DNA of 64,000 bases, taken from NCBI RefSeq assembly GCF_024713945.1, contig NC_134680.1, positions 4,240,001 through 4,304,000 of the forward strand, read 5' to 3'. Within the stretch, counting starts at the first letter, position 1; each line of letters opens with the position of its first letter. The notes below the pieces were generated by a model. That model was not told the DNA's origin. It saw only the letters and a program-made list of their open reading frames with translations, and did no database searches. The translations under genes were made by a program, and so were the position numbers. Below, one piece after another: positions 19,418-28,423 of this stretch. Source of the DNA: Dermatophagoides farinae (lineage: Eukaryota; Arthropoda; Arachnida; Sarcoptiformes; Pyroglyphidae).

Positions 19418-20671
19418 ATGCCCTCAAATATGGAACCATCAACTAAATATCATCATACAACTATGGCCATATGGAAACAAGAATTTGAAACCTTTTCGAC
19501 AGATTTCATTCATACAATTCAAGCATTTTGTCGTATACATTATCGAAATGATTGTGAACAAGATTGTCATCTTGGTTATATTATACATACAAAACATAAA
19601 CGAACATTTATTTTTGGTGAAACATTATGTCGTTGGCTTTCATTACGTTATGATGATCCTTGTGAACTGCAAGAATTACGTACGTTGAATGGAAAAATTA
19701 TCAAACAAGTTGATTATGGTCTTGATTTTTTTGTTATACTCACCACTGATGGTTGTGTATATCTGGCCAGTTCTGATCCATATTGGGAAACTGATCGACA
19801 ACTCAAATGGATTGACACCGGTTCCAATCATATTGAACAGATTGCCTGTGGACATGAACATTTACTTTTATTACGTTCTGATCAACGATTAATGGCTATG
19901 GGTTGGAATGGCCTAGGTCAAACAACCGGTACGGCTGAACATTCACATCGATCATTAGTTTATACTGGATTAGAAAATGTAAAAAAAATTGCTTGTGGTT
20001 GGGCACATTCATTAGCATTAACCTATACGGGTAGAGTATATTCATGGGGCCTTAATGAATCTGGTCGTTTAGGATTGAATGATGAAATTAATCGTAATAC
20101 ACCCAATCTTATTGAATTCGAGTGTGATGAACAATCATATCAAATTAAGGATTTTGTTGCCGGTGCTGCACATACATTATTCCTGATGGAAAACGGTACT
20201 GTATATGGTTGTGGATGGAATGATAATGGTGAGCTTGGATCACCTGATTTTGATCAATACGAATTATCACCAATACGATTACCGATTGAAAATGTAAAAG
20301 CCATCGCAACCGGTTGGTCATATCGTTTTACGATTGCATTCACTAACGATCATCAATGTTATGTATGGGGTGAGCTAGGACAAGACACAATGGGTACAAT
20401 TAGATTATATCATCCAACAAAAATTATACCCAATCTATTATCATCATCATCATCGTGGTCATTTTCAGCCATATCATCACTTTATTTTAATCCACCATTG
20501 ACATTTGGTTGGTGTCAACGTTACACAATGAATAAACTAAAAGTTAAACAACCAAATTTTAATAATAAATATTCACAACAACGTATTGAATGTGATCCTG
20601 AACATGATTATGTTAATATGATGGTCAAACGTTTTTCAATCACATCTGATCATTCATTAACATTTCCTTAG
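19418..20671 (+). CDS. RCC1-repeat (beta-propeller) protein
   Basis: A single uninterrupted 417-aa frame. The middle (about residues 135-320) holds repeated RCC1-type units with the typical pattern of a CGxxHxLxL strand followed by a WG-N-GxLG turn: IACGHEHLLLL..GWNGLGQ, IACGWAHSLAL..SWGLNESGRLGL, FVAGAAHTLFL..CGWNDNGELG and IATGWSYRFTI..VWGELGQ. Only four or five repeats are clear, fewer than the seven of canonical RCC1, so the outer blades may have diverged. RCC1 itself is the Ran exchange factor, but many relatives have other or unknown roles. There is no nuclear localisation run, lipid domain or other fused domain to choose between them. RCCD1-like and SERGEF-like are possibilities I cannot separate. 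The gene is intronless and converges on the ABCG gene with only 195 bp between stops. Confidence 0.8.
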   Translation: MPSNMEPSTKYHHTTMAIWKQEFETFSTDFIHTIQAFCRIHYRNDCEQDCHLGYIIHTKHKRTFIFGETLCRWLSLRYDDPCELQELRTLNGKIIKQVDYGLDFFVILTTDGCVYLASSDPYWETDRQLKWIDTGSNHIEQIACGHEHLLLLRSDQRLMAMGWNGLGQTTGTAEHSHRSLVYTGLENVKKIACGWAHSLALTYTGRVYSWGLNESGRLGLNDEINRNTPNLIEFECDEQSYQIKDFVAGAAHTLFLMENGTVYGCGWNDNGELGSPDFDQYELSPIRLPIENVKAIATGWSYRFTIAFTNDHQCYVWGELGQDTMGTIRLYHPTKIIPNLLSSSSSWSFSAISSLYFNPPLTFGWCQRYTMNKLKVKQPNFNNKYSQQRIECDPEHDYVNMMVKRFSITSDHSLTFP

Positions 20672-20866: not shown

Positions 20867-23800
20867 TCATAATCGAATCGTTACAAAATCATCCGATGTT
20901 GATGCGGAAGACGATGATGCGGAATATGAAGATGTTGATGGCATTTTACATAACAATTTTTCTTTATGATAACATTGTATACGTTGTACACGGCTACGAC
21001 GGCTATTCATTGGATTTGATTTGATTATTAATAACCATAATGCTAAACAATGATAAAATATGGCCAATATGACCAACATGGCTATACCATAAAGGAAATT
21101 TTCCATCGTATTTGGTATCATTAGCTGATAAAGAATGGATTGAATTTCATGTTCAAGACAGCGTTCACCACCATAGATTAGCCAAAAATCTGATTGATTA
21201 ACGAAACGTAATATGGAAAAATATGATAATAATCGTTGAAAATAATTAAGCTGTTCAATTGGATTGAATGCATTTGAAAACATTAAAAATGTTGAAACAA
21301 ATGATGCTAGACATAGTATCATTAATATAAAATGGCCATTTGTAATTAATGCAACTAAATGGCCAATTGCTTGAAAACTTATTGATGCCAATAATAGGAT
21401 TAAAACTTGCCAACAATAATAATGATGTACAGAAACGATTGAATAGATATCGGTTACATAGACGAATGCCATTATGATTGGAATTAATGTTATGGTTTCG
21501 AATAGAAATTTCTGTAAATAGAATACACCACAACTATACCATCCTATGGTGAATGGGGAAAAAAATTCGTTAATATAATAAATTATTTAAAATTCGATCA
21601 TCATCCCACTTACCATTATGATGTTCATTAAGAAAATATTTTAATTCATTTATAAATGTAAACATTGTTTGCATTGATAATGCTAATGTAAATAGAATCG
21701 GTACATATGCAATATAATAAATTGAATTGATAATCTGTTTTTCTTCACGAATTTTATCTGCTGTTCGATTCGCTGAACAATAGGCAAGAAAATCATCTTC
21801 AAGATTAAGACAACCACTTGGTTGATTTATATTCGAATTGAAGAAAACCACTAATGATGTACCGATTGCCATATAGATGAATATAAAAACTAACCATTCT
21901 TTCCATTGATGTCTGATGATATAATGTAAATAACGTTGTGATAGAATCCACATGGAATATAATGAAAAACGAATACGATTAAATTGTACACCATCCGGTA
22001 TGGCAATCGTGTCCGTTTGAATATCTGTTTGACGAATCAATTTTTCACTTCGTTCAGCCATTTGTTGGACAATAGGATTATTACCACCAGTGCAGGAATA
22101 TTTTATTAATTGTTCAATTGGAAAACGATCTCGACCACATTCAGGTACGGATATTTGATCAAGATATTCTTTGATTCGTTCGGGTTTTCCTGAATAAATA
22201 CATAGGCCATCACGGGCGAGTACATAACAATGATGAAACATCATTAATAATTCGGTATTTGGTTGATGGATACTGGCAACAATACAAATATCTGGATGAC
22301 GATTAACTAAATTATCTAAAGTTTGAACAACAAGTCGAGCTGAATTTGAATCCAATCCACTGGTAGGTTCATCAATACAGATCAGGTTCGGCATCTGTAT
22401 CGATGTTAATTCAAGGGCAAGCGCTAAACGTTTACGTTGACCACCGGAACAATGTTGTACCATTGTATCAACAGTATCGGTTAAATCAAGTTCATTGAGT
22501 ATTTTCATAGTCAATTTTTCATGATCAACAAATGTTTGATCACCAGCACCATCGAGATTTTTCATATGACAATTCTTTAGTCTTGATGCATAGATTAAAA
22601 TTTGTCCAACAGTAAGGCCAGGCATTAGATGTCCAGATACTTCTTGTGTAATGAAACAAGTACGAATTGGTACATATTTACTCATATGAAATTCTGTCGA
22701 ATCGGCTAATCGTGTTTTCATACGGCCATTCAATACTTTAAGCAATGATGTTTTACCCGAACCAGATGTACCCATTAATGCATTTATCGTACCGAATTGT
22801 AGCTGGCCGTTAAGATTTTTCAATATTAATCGTTTTGATCGATTAATCGATGACGATGTCTCATCATCCGACGGTACAGGTCGATTTTCATAGATTGATT
22901 GAGTTGCAAATACTGATAATGATCTCCATCCAATAATATGACGACCGCGTAAAAATTGTTGTCGATGATTATAGATGTTTTTCCCATTTATATGAGATCG
23001 ATCAAGAATTGTTTGCTCTTTTTCATTTTGATTATCATCCACATGATCATAATCAATTGGAATGGAATGAGCGAAACGTTTTTGTCTTTCAGATTTCTGT
23101 ACAATACGTTTATCGATGAATGTAAATCGTAAATACATTAAAATGAATGCAGCAATACGTAAAGCCGTAATATTCAATGATGAAGGCAAAAGATTTGCGT
23201 AAATGTTATCTGGATCAATATTGAAATCGTGTAACATATATGAATATTCTGATTCTGTGTCACAACGATCAATACCATAGAATGCAAATAGAACACCATC
23301 GGCTAGATAACGGATTCCTAAACAATGTGATATGATCATCAACCATGGTTTATCCATTATTTCCAATGTAATTGAAATGCCATTCATCAAAATCATATTT
23401 GAAAATACTAATTGTAGACAAATGGTCATTATTTGCATATTATCCATGAATACAAGAGCGGCTAATTGACCATATGATTGAAGATAAACCATTAGAAACC
23501 AGTAATAGAGGATAAAATGTCCAATACGATTCCAATTAAAATGATAATCATCGATGATAAAATAACCGCCGGTAAAATATATGACCATTGTTGAATTGAA
23601 AATTAATGTGCTCATCTGAGCTAATTGTCCGAATTGAAATGCAAAGAAAAATGTTGATAAACTATACCAGCCTATGTAGAAAATTAAAAAAGATTAGGGT
23701 TACGTAAATCATTTTATCTACATTTTTTTACCATTTCGATGTTCATTAATAAAAACTTTTAGCAATTCAACAAGAAAAACGGCACTAAAACCAATGGCAG

Positions 23801-25333
23801 AAGCGGAAATGAGTATGAATAGAACCTGTTGATATACGATATAGGTGCCGGTAAGTATACCATCTTCTAATTCATCTTGACATGTACGATTATAGCCATC
23901 AGGATCATGTGGTCGACAACCATTTGGTAAAACCATATCACTATTAGTGGCGAATCCAGCAAAAAAGACAAATAATGAATTCGCAAAAAGCATGTACAAT
24001 AATTTTCTTATATCAACGATGAATATAAGTTGTAAAAGACGATACATTTGAATACAAAGATCATCTAAATTGAATGATTTTGTATGTCTAGGCATTCCGT
24101 TCGGTACTTGTACAAGATGTTCAATCATCGAATCATCATTCATCATTATCATTTCATGATTAGTTTGTTCAAGGGTATTGTTCGCTAATTCACGAACTTT
24201 TGCGTTGATACCTATTTTTAAATTTAAATTTTTTAGATTCTGAATTTAGAAAAAATCACAATAAACTTACCATTCGAAGCAATGCGAAGAAATTCTTCAA
24301 TAGGTGAACGATCATCATCCATTTCCAATTGTAATGTTTGCAGTAGATATGAACGCATTAGATTTGGTTCACCCGAATAAATACAAACACCACCTTTAGC
24401 TAATATATAAAGATGATCGAATAACATTAAAATTTCCGAACTGGGTGCATGTATTGAGACCATTATTGTCAAGGAATTATTCAATGATAATCGTCGTAAA
24501 CATTGCATGACTAATAATGCAGCTTCACTATCCAAACCGGTGGTTGGTTCATCAACGAATAAAAATGGTGGCTTTGATTCCAATGACATTAATTCCTGTG
24601 CAATGGCTACACGACGTTGTTCACCACCGGAACATTGTTCAAATTTTGTTTCCAGTACTCTTGAATCGAGCATTAATTCTTCCAACACCTGGCGAATATG
24701 TTGCCCGGCTTGATGACGTTGTCCGAATGGATTTTTAAAACGAAATGCATAATAAAGTAATTCTTTGACAGTGAATGAACCAAAAACTATTTCATGTACT
24801 GATTGTGGTATCGATCCTACTAATGTCATTTGCCGTTTATTTGCCATAGTACATCGTTGATCAATTATTGAACGATTTAAATAGATTTCCGTATCGGATG
24901 TTATGTTTGATTTGGAAACATTACCGGTTAAACATTTTATCAGTGAAGTTTTTCCTGCACCACTTGGTCCCAATAATGCATTCAATGAATTTTCACGTAA
25001 TGAACCATTCAAACGTCTGAGGATAATTTTACGACGACGACGTGGCCAACCAATCCATGATGATCGATCACCGCCACTGCCATCATCATCAATATACCAT
25101 TCATTCACTTCATAACGAAGATTTTTCCACCATAATGCAATCGGTTTTCGATTAATATCTGATGATTGTGTAACTGGTTGTTTTGGAACGCCATTTTCAT
25201 TCAATATGAATGTTGTGTTAATATAGTATGATGATGATGATGATGATGATGAAGATGATGATGATGATCGTTGTTGATCTTCCAGTTCCTTCGATATCAT
25301 TGTTGTTTTGTTGTTATTTTTCATCATTGGCAC
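20867..25333 (-). CDS. Full-size ABCG transporter (NBD-TMD-NBD-TMD)
   Basis: Four exons: 24271-25333, 23732-24211, 21614-23671 and 20867-21543. All junctions are phase 1, giving 1425 aa. NBD1 has Walker A GPSGAGKT (about 122-129), signature CSGGEQRR (234-241), Walker B FLFVDEPTTGLD and the switch His in SIHAP (about 295). It is followed by TMD1. A linker of about 100 residues leads to NBD2: Walker A GTSGSGKT (about 815-822), signature CSGGQRKR (922-929), Walker B LICIDEPTSGLD (about 944) and switch His in SIHQP (about 983). TMD2 follows. Each half has the ABCG hallmark NGWYS after the NEH(R/H)NG motif, and in both halves an intron splits the Gly codon of that motif. Exon 3 alone carries the end of TMD1, all of NBD2 and most of TMD2, so the fusion is read directly in one frame. 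The N-terminus has a Ser run of about 13. Substrate is unknown; ABCG members move lipids, pigment precursors or xenobiotics. All ATPase motifs are intact in both halves. Confidence 0.92.
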
Positions 25334-27636: not shown

Positions 27637-28104
27637 TCATTCGTTCATTTTTTGTTTATATACAATTAACAATTTATCTGGCATATCATCTAATTTCATT
27701 TCTAATCGTTTCAATTGCCAACCATCATTATCATGACAATCAGCATTACCATCGTTATTGTTGTTGGTCTTATTTTCTATTCGATATTCTGCTTCGATAT
27801 GTAATGCACCATTTCGTTTGGTTCCATGAAATGGTAACCAAAAATCTGCATGATTCGTACCAACACGATTACGTTGTTTATCCACTAGATTTGGTGGTTG
27901 TATTTTCAGTGGTTCACCCACTAATCTTAATGCTGCTTCATTACGATTTACTTGTTCGATGGCCATCGTACAGAATGGCCGTTTTAATATAGAATATTGG
28001 GTATATTTAAGTGCAACAATACATATTGTTGAACCTATCACACCGATAGCCGATGCTGTAATTACATAACGATTTAATGGTAAACGTAGCAGAAATCTAA
28101 TCAT
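27637..28104 (-). CDS. COA1: Cytochrome c oxidase assembly factor 1 homologue
   Basis: A mitochondrial inner-membrane protein of the TIM21/COA1 family, which acts early in complex IV assembly. A single-exon frame of 155 aa starts at MIRFLLRLPLNRY. The frame is open further upstream, but MIRFLL gives a basic amphipathic start followed at once by the membrane segment (VITASAIGVIGSTICIVALKY), as in the family. The soluble part shows the family pattern AIEQVNRNEAALRLVGEPLKI, then NHADFWLPFHGTKRNGALHIEAEY and WQLKRLEMKL. A species-specific Asn/Asp insert (NKTNNNNDGN) interrupts the last strands. It is head-to-head with eL41, 319 bp apart. I think COA1 is much more likely than TIM21 because the chain is short and has no long presequence. 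Confidence 0.85.
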   Translation of the reverse strand: MIRFLLRLPLNRYVITASAIGVIGSTICIVALKYTQYSILKRPFCTMAIEQVNRNEAALRLVGEPLKIQPPNLVDKQRNRVGTNHADFWLPFHGTKRNGALHIEAEYRIENKTNNNNDGNADCHDNDGWQLKRLEMKLDDMPDKLLIVYKQKMNE

Positions 28105-28423
28105 ATTTATGGAATTATCGATTTTTTTTTTTTTTCTCGATCTCGATGATTCCGAAATCCAACTAAATACACACATTTAAAGCCGGCAATGTTGAAATGG
28201 AAAAACACAGCCACACGACCACACGTTTTTTTTGCTTTCCTCTTGTTGTGTTTGCTCGCTCGCTCTTTGTTCATTCTCACGTTGGATTTTTTTCATTTTG
28301 CCGATTTTTTTCTTTTTTTTTTTGGTAATAACTTTATTTTCTATATCCCCCGTATCTTGGTTGGTTCCCATCTTTGAAAGTACTAAAGGGAAACCGTTTT
28401 CCCTCTTTTCAAGAGATTCAATT
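28105..28423. promoter_or_regulatory. Shared divergent promoter region of COA1 and eL41
   Basis: Start codons of a mitochondrial assembly gene (-) and a ribosomal gene (+) are 319 bp apart with nothing else between. A pyrimidine tract on the plus strand near 28233-28247 (TTGCTTTCCTCTTG) could hold a 5' TOP-like start typical of ribosomal protein genes. The run CCCTCTTTTCAAG just before the eL41 start looks like a splice acceptor for a 5' UTR intron. Exact start sites cannot be fixed from sequence alone. Confidence 0.5.

Follow-up and report, generated by a model that had tools for sequence, protein, structure and literature searches.

We have found that a gene on the minus strand of the 64,000-nucleotide stretch of the Dermatophagoides farinae genome analysed here (the window) encodes two complete ABCG halves in a single reading frame, and that it is one of 30 loci of the same layout in this genome, where the first-pass annotation had treated it as a single case. 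Judged by its sequence, the gene is an ABCG transporter that would have become full-size by its own route. It is very probable, in our view, that the full-size ABCG proteins of this mite arose by duplication and fusion of a half-size gene, that the fused gene spread to ~30 loci and that the paired halves of its products form two ATP sites and act in export.

The gene runs from 25327 to 20867 in four exons (Table 1) and encodes 1423 residues, numbered from the first ATG, in the order NBD1-TMD1-NBD2-TMD2. The three introns between its exons (59, 60 and 70 bases) have GT-AG ends, and each interrupts a Gly codon in phase 1; a custom-written spliced aligner given the 1423-residue protein returned identical exons. 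The first-pass annotation had given a length of 1425 codons; the frame it chose is correct, and its start at 25333 lies two codons upstream of the protein (GTG CCA before ATG ATG). It had also described exon 3 as free of stops from TMD1 into TMD2, and this exon indeed lies inside an open frame of 707 codons; when the bases of the gene were shuffled 200 times, no frame exceeded 148 codons.

Table 1 Features of the full-size ABCG gene (positions in the window; a slash marks the place of an intron)
Feature	Position	Strand	Basis
Exon 1: N-terminal tail and NBD1, to SNG	24271..25327	-	ORF, Pfam ABC_tran; Walker A, signature, Walker B, switch His; ATG at 25327
Intron 1: phase 1, GT-AG, at Gly 353 (SNG/INA); half 1 only	24212..24270	-	
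Exon 2: remaining NBD1 region, then TMD1 as far as EHRNG	23732..24211	-	ORF, spliced model
Intron 2: phase 1, at Gly 513 of NG/WYS in TMD1	23672..23731	-	
Exon 3: remainder of TMD1, linker, NBD2, start of TMD2; single open frame	21614..23671	-	
Intron 3: phase 1, at Gly 1199 of NG/WYS in TMD2	21544..21613	-	
Exon 4: remainder of TMD2, C-terminal tail, stop codon	20867..21543	-	ORF, spliced model

Pfam recognises ABC_tran and ABC2_membrane twice each in the protein, and in both halves the NBD is N-terminal to the TMD, which is the ABCG order. Each half has its own Walker A (GPSGAGKT at residue 120 and GTSGSGKT at 813), signature (CSGGEQRR at 232 and CSGGQRKR at 920), Walker B (FLFVDEP at 255 and LICIDEP at 942) and switch His (SIHAP at 291 and SIHQP at 979), together with the TMD motif (EHRNGWYS at 509 and EHHNGWYS at 1195). 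The two halves are 30% identical to each other over 568 residues (E 1.9e-67). The four-exon model, the Pfam stretches and the motifs thus bear out what had been proposed on first reading, namely one frame with two complete ABCG halves, each with the full set of catalytic motifs. Near the gene lie a single-exon gene for an RCC1-repeat protein (WD40_RLD/RCC1; 19418-20671, plus strand), with its stop ~195 bases from the ABCG stop, tail to tail, and an ORF with a Coa1 (cytochrome oxidase assembly) domain (27637-28176, minus strand).

The whole assembly, 62.4 Mb in 22 contigs, was searched with NBD1 and with the TMD1-NBD2-TMD2 stretch of the window gene. It also contains a group-2 allergen exon (L077) that matches Der f 2 (1ahk) over 121 residues with a single substitution (271.8 bits) and reaches 246-248 bits with Der p 2; by this one gene the mite is D. 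farinae or a very close relative. An NBD1-type match with an adjoining TMD1-NBD2-TMD2 match on the same strand was found at 30 loci, the window included, and counts of large families from such a genome search are lower bounds. The loci are spread over six long contigs (C3 11, C9 7, C6 4, C7 4, C4 2, C8 2), with clusters of six at C3:5.61-5.64 Mb and of four at C9:2.01-2.04 Mb. Of the 29 loci outside the window, 26 have an NBD1 that is 50-71% identical to that of the window over nearly its whole length; the remaining matches are in two pieces at C9:2029 kb (67 and 63%), partial at C6:4508 kb (52%) and 39% identical at C3:816 kb. Eighteen loci could be modelled to a stop codon (the window, L061-L074, G20, G22 and G27, the last three from overlapping stretches), giving proteins of 1300-1466 residues. 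Fifteen of these models are without frame anomaly, two (L069, L074) have an apparent frameshift in exon 4 and one (L067), counted as complete despite doubt, has a 1161-base gap; for three (L064, L071, G22) no starting ATG was found. Models G19 and G23 are partial, being cut by the locus end, and were left out of the complete count; in L041-L045, L055, L056 and L058 the reading covered half 1 and went no further than NBD2, and in G30 (L075) the layout is present and the NBDs are degenerate.

Some members of the family depart from the common form. In L075 (G000:C3:812400-817800) neither the Walker A nor the signature pattern is matched, and the layout and both phase-1 introns are kept; its sequence suggests a member that has lost catalysis or turned regulatory, or else one in decay. 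L067 (G000:C9:2033900-2039900) has NBD1-TMD1 followed by an additional piece of TMD1, after which TMD1-NBD2-TMD2 comes as usual, an arrangement as after unequal crossing-over between tandem copies. Apparent one-base frameshifts are seen in exon 4 of L069 and L074 and in NBD1 of L058, and an internally truncated copy at G000:C6:4506225-4508571, known from search-table matches only, lacks the stretch where NBD1 ends and TMD1 begins; these four are apparently pseudogenes or assembly errors.

An intron that splits the Gly codon of the NGWYS motif in each half had been noted in the window gene, and it holds both there and in the family. Of the 29 loci read, the window included, 27 have the phase-1 NG/WYS intron in half 1, the exceptions being L063 and G19; in half 2 it is present in all 19 loci read, again including the window, 17 of them by the aligner and two (L069, L074) by eye. 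The site of intron 1 was also modelled in L061, L071, G20, G23 and L041-L045. Among the half-size ABCG genes of D. farinae, only one of the ten modelled, L025, has an NG/WYS intron; the intron places in these distant genes are approximate. L025 (G000:C5:5256445-5259828) is a half-size ABCG with a degenerate NBD and a phase-1 NG/W intron, and groups with NBD1 (94/86) on a long branch. It may be what is left of the ancestral half gene, or else a half that has broken off.

An unrooted tree of NBDs (60 rows) was calculated from 21 of the 30 loci, both NBDs of each of three fungal PDR proteins, human ABCG1 and ABCG2, L025 and nine other half-size ABCGs of D. farinae. The 21 NBD1s form one group (99/98) and the 21 NBD2s another (100/99), and NBD1s, NBD2s and L025 together form a group (100/100) apart from fungal PDR, from ABCG1/ABCG2 and from the nine mite half-size ABCGs. 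L025 and G30 are on long branches and their place is unsure; the PDR branches are also long, and the joining of PDR NBD1 with PDR NBD2 may, according to a program warning, be an artefact. Quick trees of whole halves and of TMDs, from 16 of the 18 complete genes (without L066 and L067, and with no partial ones) and ten half genes, gave one group per half in each; the TMD tree gave no supported joining of the half-1 and half-2 groups to each other. Distances among NBD1s and among NBD2s are strongly correlated (r 0.956, 20 genes, G30 left out), none of 2000 permutations being as high, which is what one would predict for a family that spread with its halves already fused. Mean identity is 37% between NBD1 and NBD2 and 36-37% between ABCG2 and NBD1, so that raw identity barely separates the cases.

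A chain of this domain order and size is also that of a PDR-type gene, and the full-size gene might have been acquired from a fungus (or plant) or have entered the assembly as fungal contamination. For both NBD queries the top whole-chain PDB matches are indeed CDR1/Pdr5, with chain scores that sum two domains. Taken by single domain, animal ABCG outscores PDR in both cases: NBD1 scores 93.4 bits with ABCG2 against 74.8 with CDR1, and NBD2 scores 93.8 with ABCG1 against 67.5 with Pdr5. The best PDB matches are ABCG1, ABCG2 or PDR chains, which favours ABCG over other ABC subfamilies; the match to an 'ABCG23-like' entry, presumably an insect ABCH, is much weaker (1.9e-11 against 4e-29). The best NCBIfam model is the half-ABCG TIGR00955 (pigment precursor permease) at 327.9 bits, below its cut-off of 736.35, against 198.2 bits for the PDR model TIGR00956, below its cut-off of 1959. 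Pdr5 and CDR1 have GRPGSGCTT, with Cys for Lys, as the Walker A of NBD1 and LNVEQRKR as the signature of NBD2, whereas both NBDs of the window protein carry GKT and CSGG and show neither fungal change. None of PDR_CDR, PDR_assoc and ABC_trans_N, which we take to be PDR-specific Pfam domains, is among the best 25 of its 40 Pfam hits. The grouping of NBD1 with NBD2, in a tree that holds fungal PDRs only, is against acquisition, and AU tests reject both the placing of NBD2 with PDR NBD2 (p-AU 0.0025) and that of the whole family with PDR (p-AU 0.0092). For NBD1 placed with its PDR counterpart, the test falls short of formal rejection (p-AU 0.061). Contamination is rejected by the copies on six long contigs and by the RCC1-like and Coa1-like genes near the window copy. 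Altogether, with fungal PDRs as the comparison, we consider a PDR origin to be very unlikely. Its rival, the duplication and fusion of a half gene, had already been preferred in the first-pass annotation and is favoured by the NBD tree, the AU tests and the NG/WYS introns.

The window gene could be full-size and yet be a decaying or non-transporting copy, as the damaged relatives described above (L075, L069, L074, L058 and the truncated copy on C6) might suggest, but it keeps every motif and an open frame, and NBDs are under purifying selection in close paralogs, pairs among which the window gene is not found; the chance of this seems to us slight indeed. We give hardly any credence to the reading in which two adjoining half-size genes have been joined on paper, or in which one transcript yields two half proteins. 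Half 2 does have internal Met codons, and in the partial model G19 a 45-base intron was placed in the linker. Against this, there is no intron between the two NG/WYS sites in any of the 18 complete models, TMD1, linker and NBD2 being in one stop-free exon in all of them. Moreover, L063 has a single exon of 1180 codons, without stop or intron, from NBD1 to the NG/WYS of TMD2, and hence its fused frame needs no splice model. A misreading of two genes as one is rejected by the single exon across the linker and by the L063 frame.

Thus, the sequences favour, as the simplest reading, a single tandem duplication and fusion of an intron-carrying half gene, and they do so over PDR transfer because of the grouping of the NBDs, the mirrored NBD1 and NBD2 distances and the common phase-1 Gly intron. 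The ancestral NBD-TMD gene, an ABCG of half size, would have carried a phase-1 intron at NG/WYS and been duplicated in tandem, the two copies then fusing into one reading frame and the fused gene reaching ~30 loci by tandem and dispersed duplication. ABCG half-transporters dimerise, and each ATP is then sandwiched by the Walker A of one NBD and the signature motif of its partner. In the fused protein the two halves may be expected to fold onto each other like the two chains of such a dimer, giving two ATP sites, and the fusion would fix the partner. Since the catalytic motifs are kept at both sites of the window protein, two active ATP sites are expected, unlike in Pdr5; hydrolysis at both would power export by way of the paired TMDs. 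On this reasoning, the window protein is most likely an ABCG exporter whose halves come ready paired and whose two ATP sites are canonical.

Substitution rates were compared in seven pairs of close paralogs; the pairs overlap in shared genes, include L069 and L074, and do not include the window gene, which is without a close pair. Ka/Ks is 0.08-0.22 in NBD1 and 0.07-0.20 in NBD2, and 0.25-0.90 in TMD1 and 0.25-0.54 in TMD2; in the linker it is noisy (0.18-1.45 over 88-89 codons). Among close paralogs, the NBDs are under purifying selection and the TMDs are fast-evolving, which is the pattern of a conserved engine with a fast-changing substrate path. Such a pattern, together with the size of the family, points to exporters of varied compounds; drawing on knowledge of the family, we infer the direction of export and consider a diverse cargo of lipophilic or xenobiotic molecules to be plausible. 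A structure predicted for half 1 of L063 (mean pLDDT 65.9, pTM 0.48, the first 98 residues below 50) is weakly supportive of an ABCG fold: the best 50 of its 332 Foldseek matches (E <= 0.001) are all ABCG, among them chains of ABCG1, ABCG2, ABCG5/8 and plant ABCG25 and ABCG16, with TM-scores of only ~0.3.

Scans for relatives gave 11 pattern matches in viral contigs, none confirmed, and 62 loci in genome contigs, all bacterial or archaeal and 21-53% identical, with no useful relative among them. By 2013 only half-size ABCGs had been reported in metazoans, according to the passages of PMC3724490 drawn on here, and those of PMC6471920 describe ABCGs as half-size in most metazoans as of 2019. Arachnids are given few ABCGs, with a median of 3.5, in the part of PMC8290562 used. 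A full-size ABCG in a mite was not found in the literature searched, whose coverage does not extend to the main comparative-genome work on astigmatids, nor in the portions of PMC3724490, PMC7738191, PMC8290562, PMC4247197, PMC12364353, PMC5467014, PMC2984421 and PMC6471920 on which this statement rests. For other animals the same searched literature, in the excerpts covered, gave no clear report, save one sentence of PMC4247197 that assigns ABCG full transporters to oyster and shrimp (fungicide resistance, detoxification) and that looks garbled. Some 30 full-size genes of their own origin would be a clean convergence with the PDR pumps, would test what ABCG fusion permits, with fixed pairing and two TMDs free to differ, and would form a candidate detoxification set in mites that cause allergy. 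More tentatively, and with somewhat less than even confidence, we suggest that house dust mites, perhaps astigmatids generally, have evolved a PDR counterpart of their own: a full-size ABCG subfamily, ~30 genes strong and of animal origin, with constant engines and rapidly changing substrate channels, which would serve as a principal route for exporting compounds that are toxic or come from the diet.

In having two NBD-TMD halves in one chain, in the order NBD1-TMD1-NBD2-TMD2, the window protein is like the fungal and plant PDR proteins (Pdr5, CDR1), and its 1423 residues are close to their size of about 1400-1500. It differs from fungal PDR, the only PDR covered in the comparison, in that the NBDs of its family group apart from PDR NBD1 and NBD2. 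With the animal half-size ABCGs (ABCG1, ABCG2, white) it shares the NBD before the TMD, the canonical motifs and the best NCBIfam and single-domain PDB matches, and it is unlike them in the fusion of two halves in one chain; mean NBD identity to human ABCG1/ABCG2 and to the mite half ABCGs is only 27-37%. An ABCG expansion in an acariform mite is also known from Tetranychus urticae, where the passages of PMC3724490 drawn on describe 23 ABCG genes in NBD-TMD order with a lineage-specific expansion and, unlike D. farinae, make no mention of full-size ones. Full-size ABCGs that arose inside a lineage from half genes are described for Tetrahymena (ABCG37-39) in the part of PMC2984421 used here. 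Those are three genes in a ciliate, apparently formed by more than one route, whereas the mite family would have one origin and ~30 loci in an animal.
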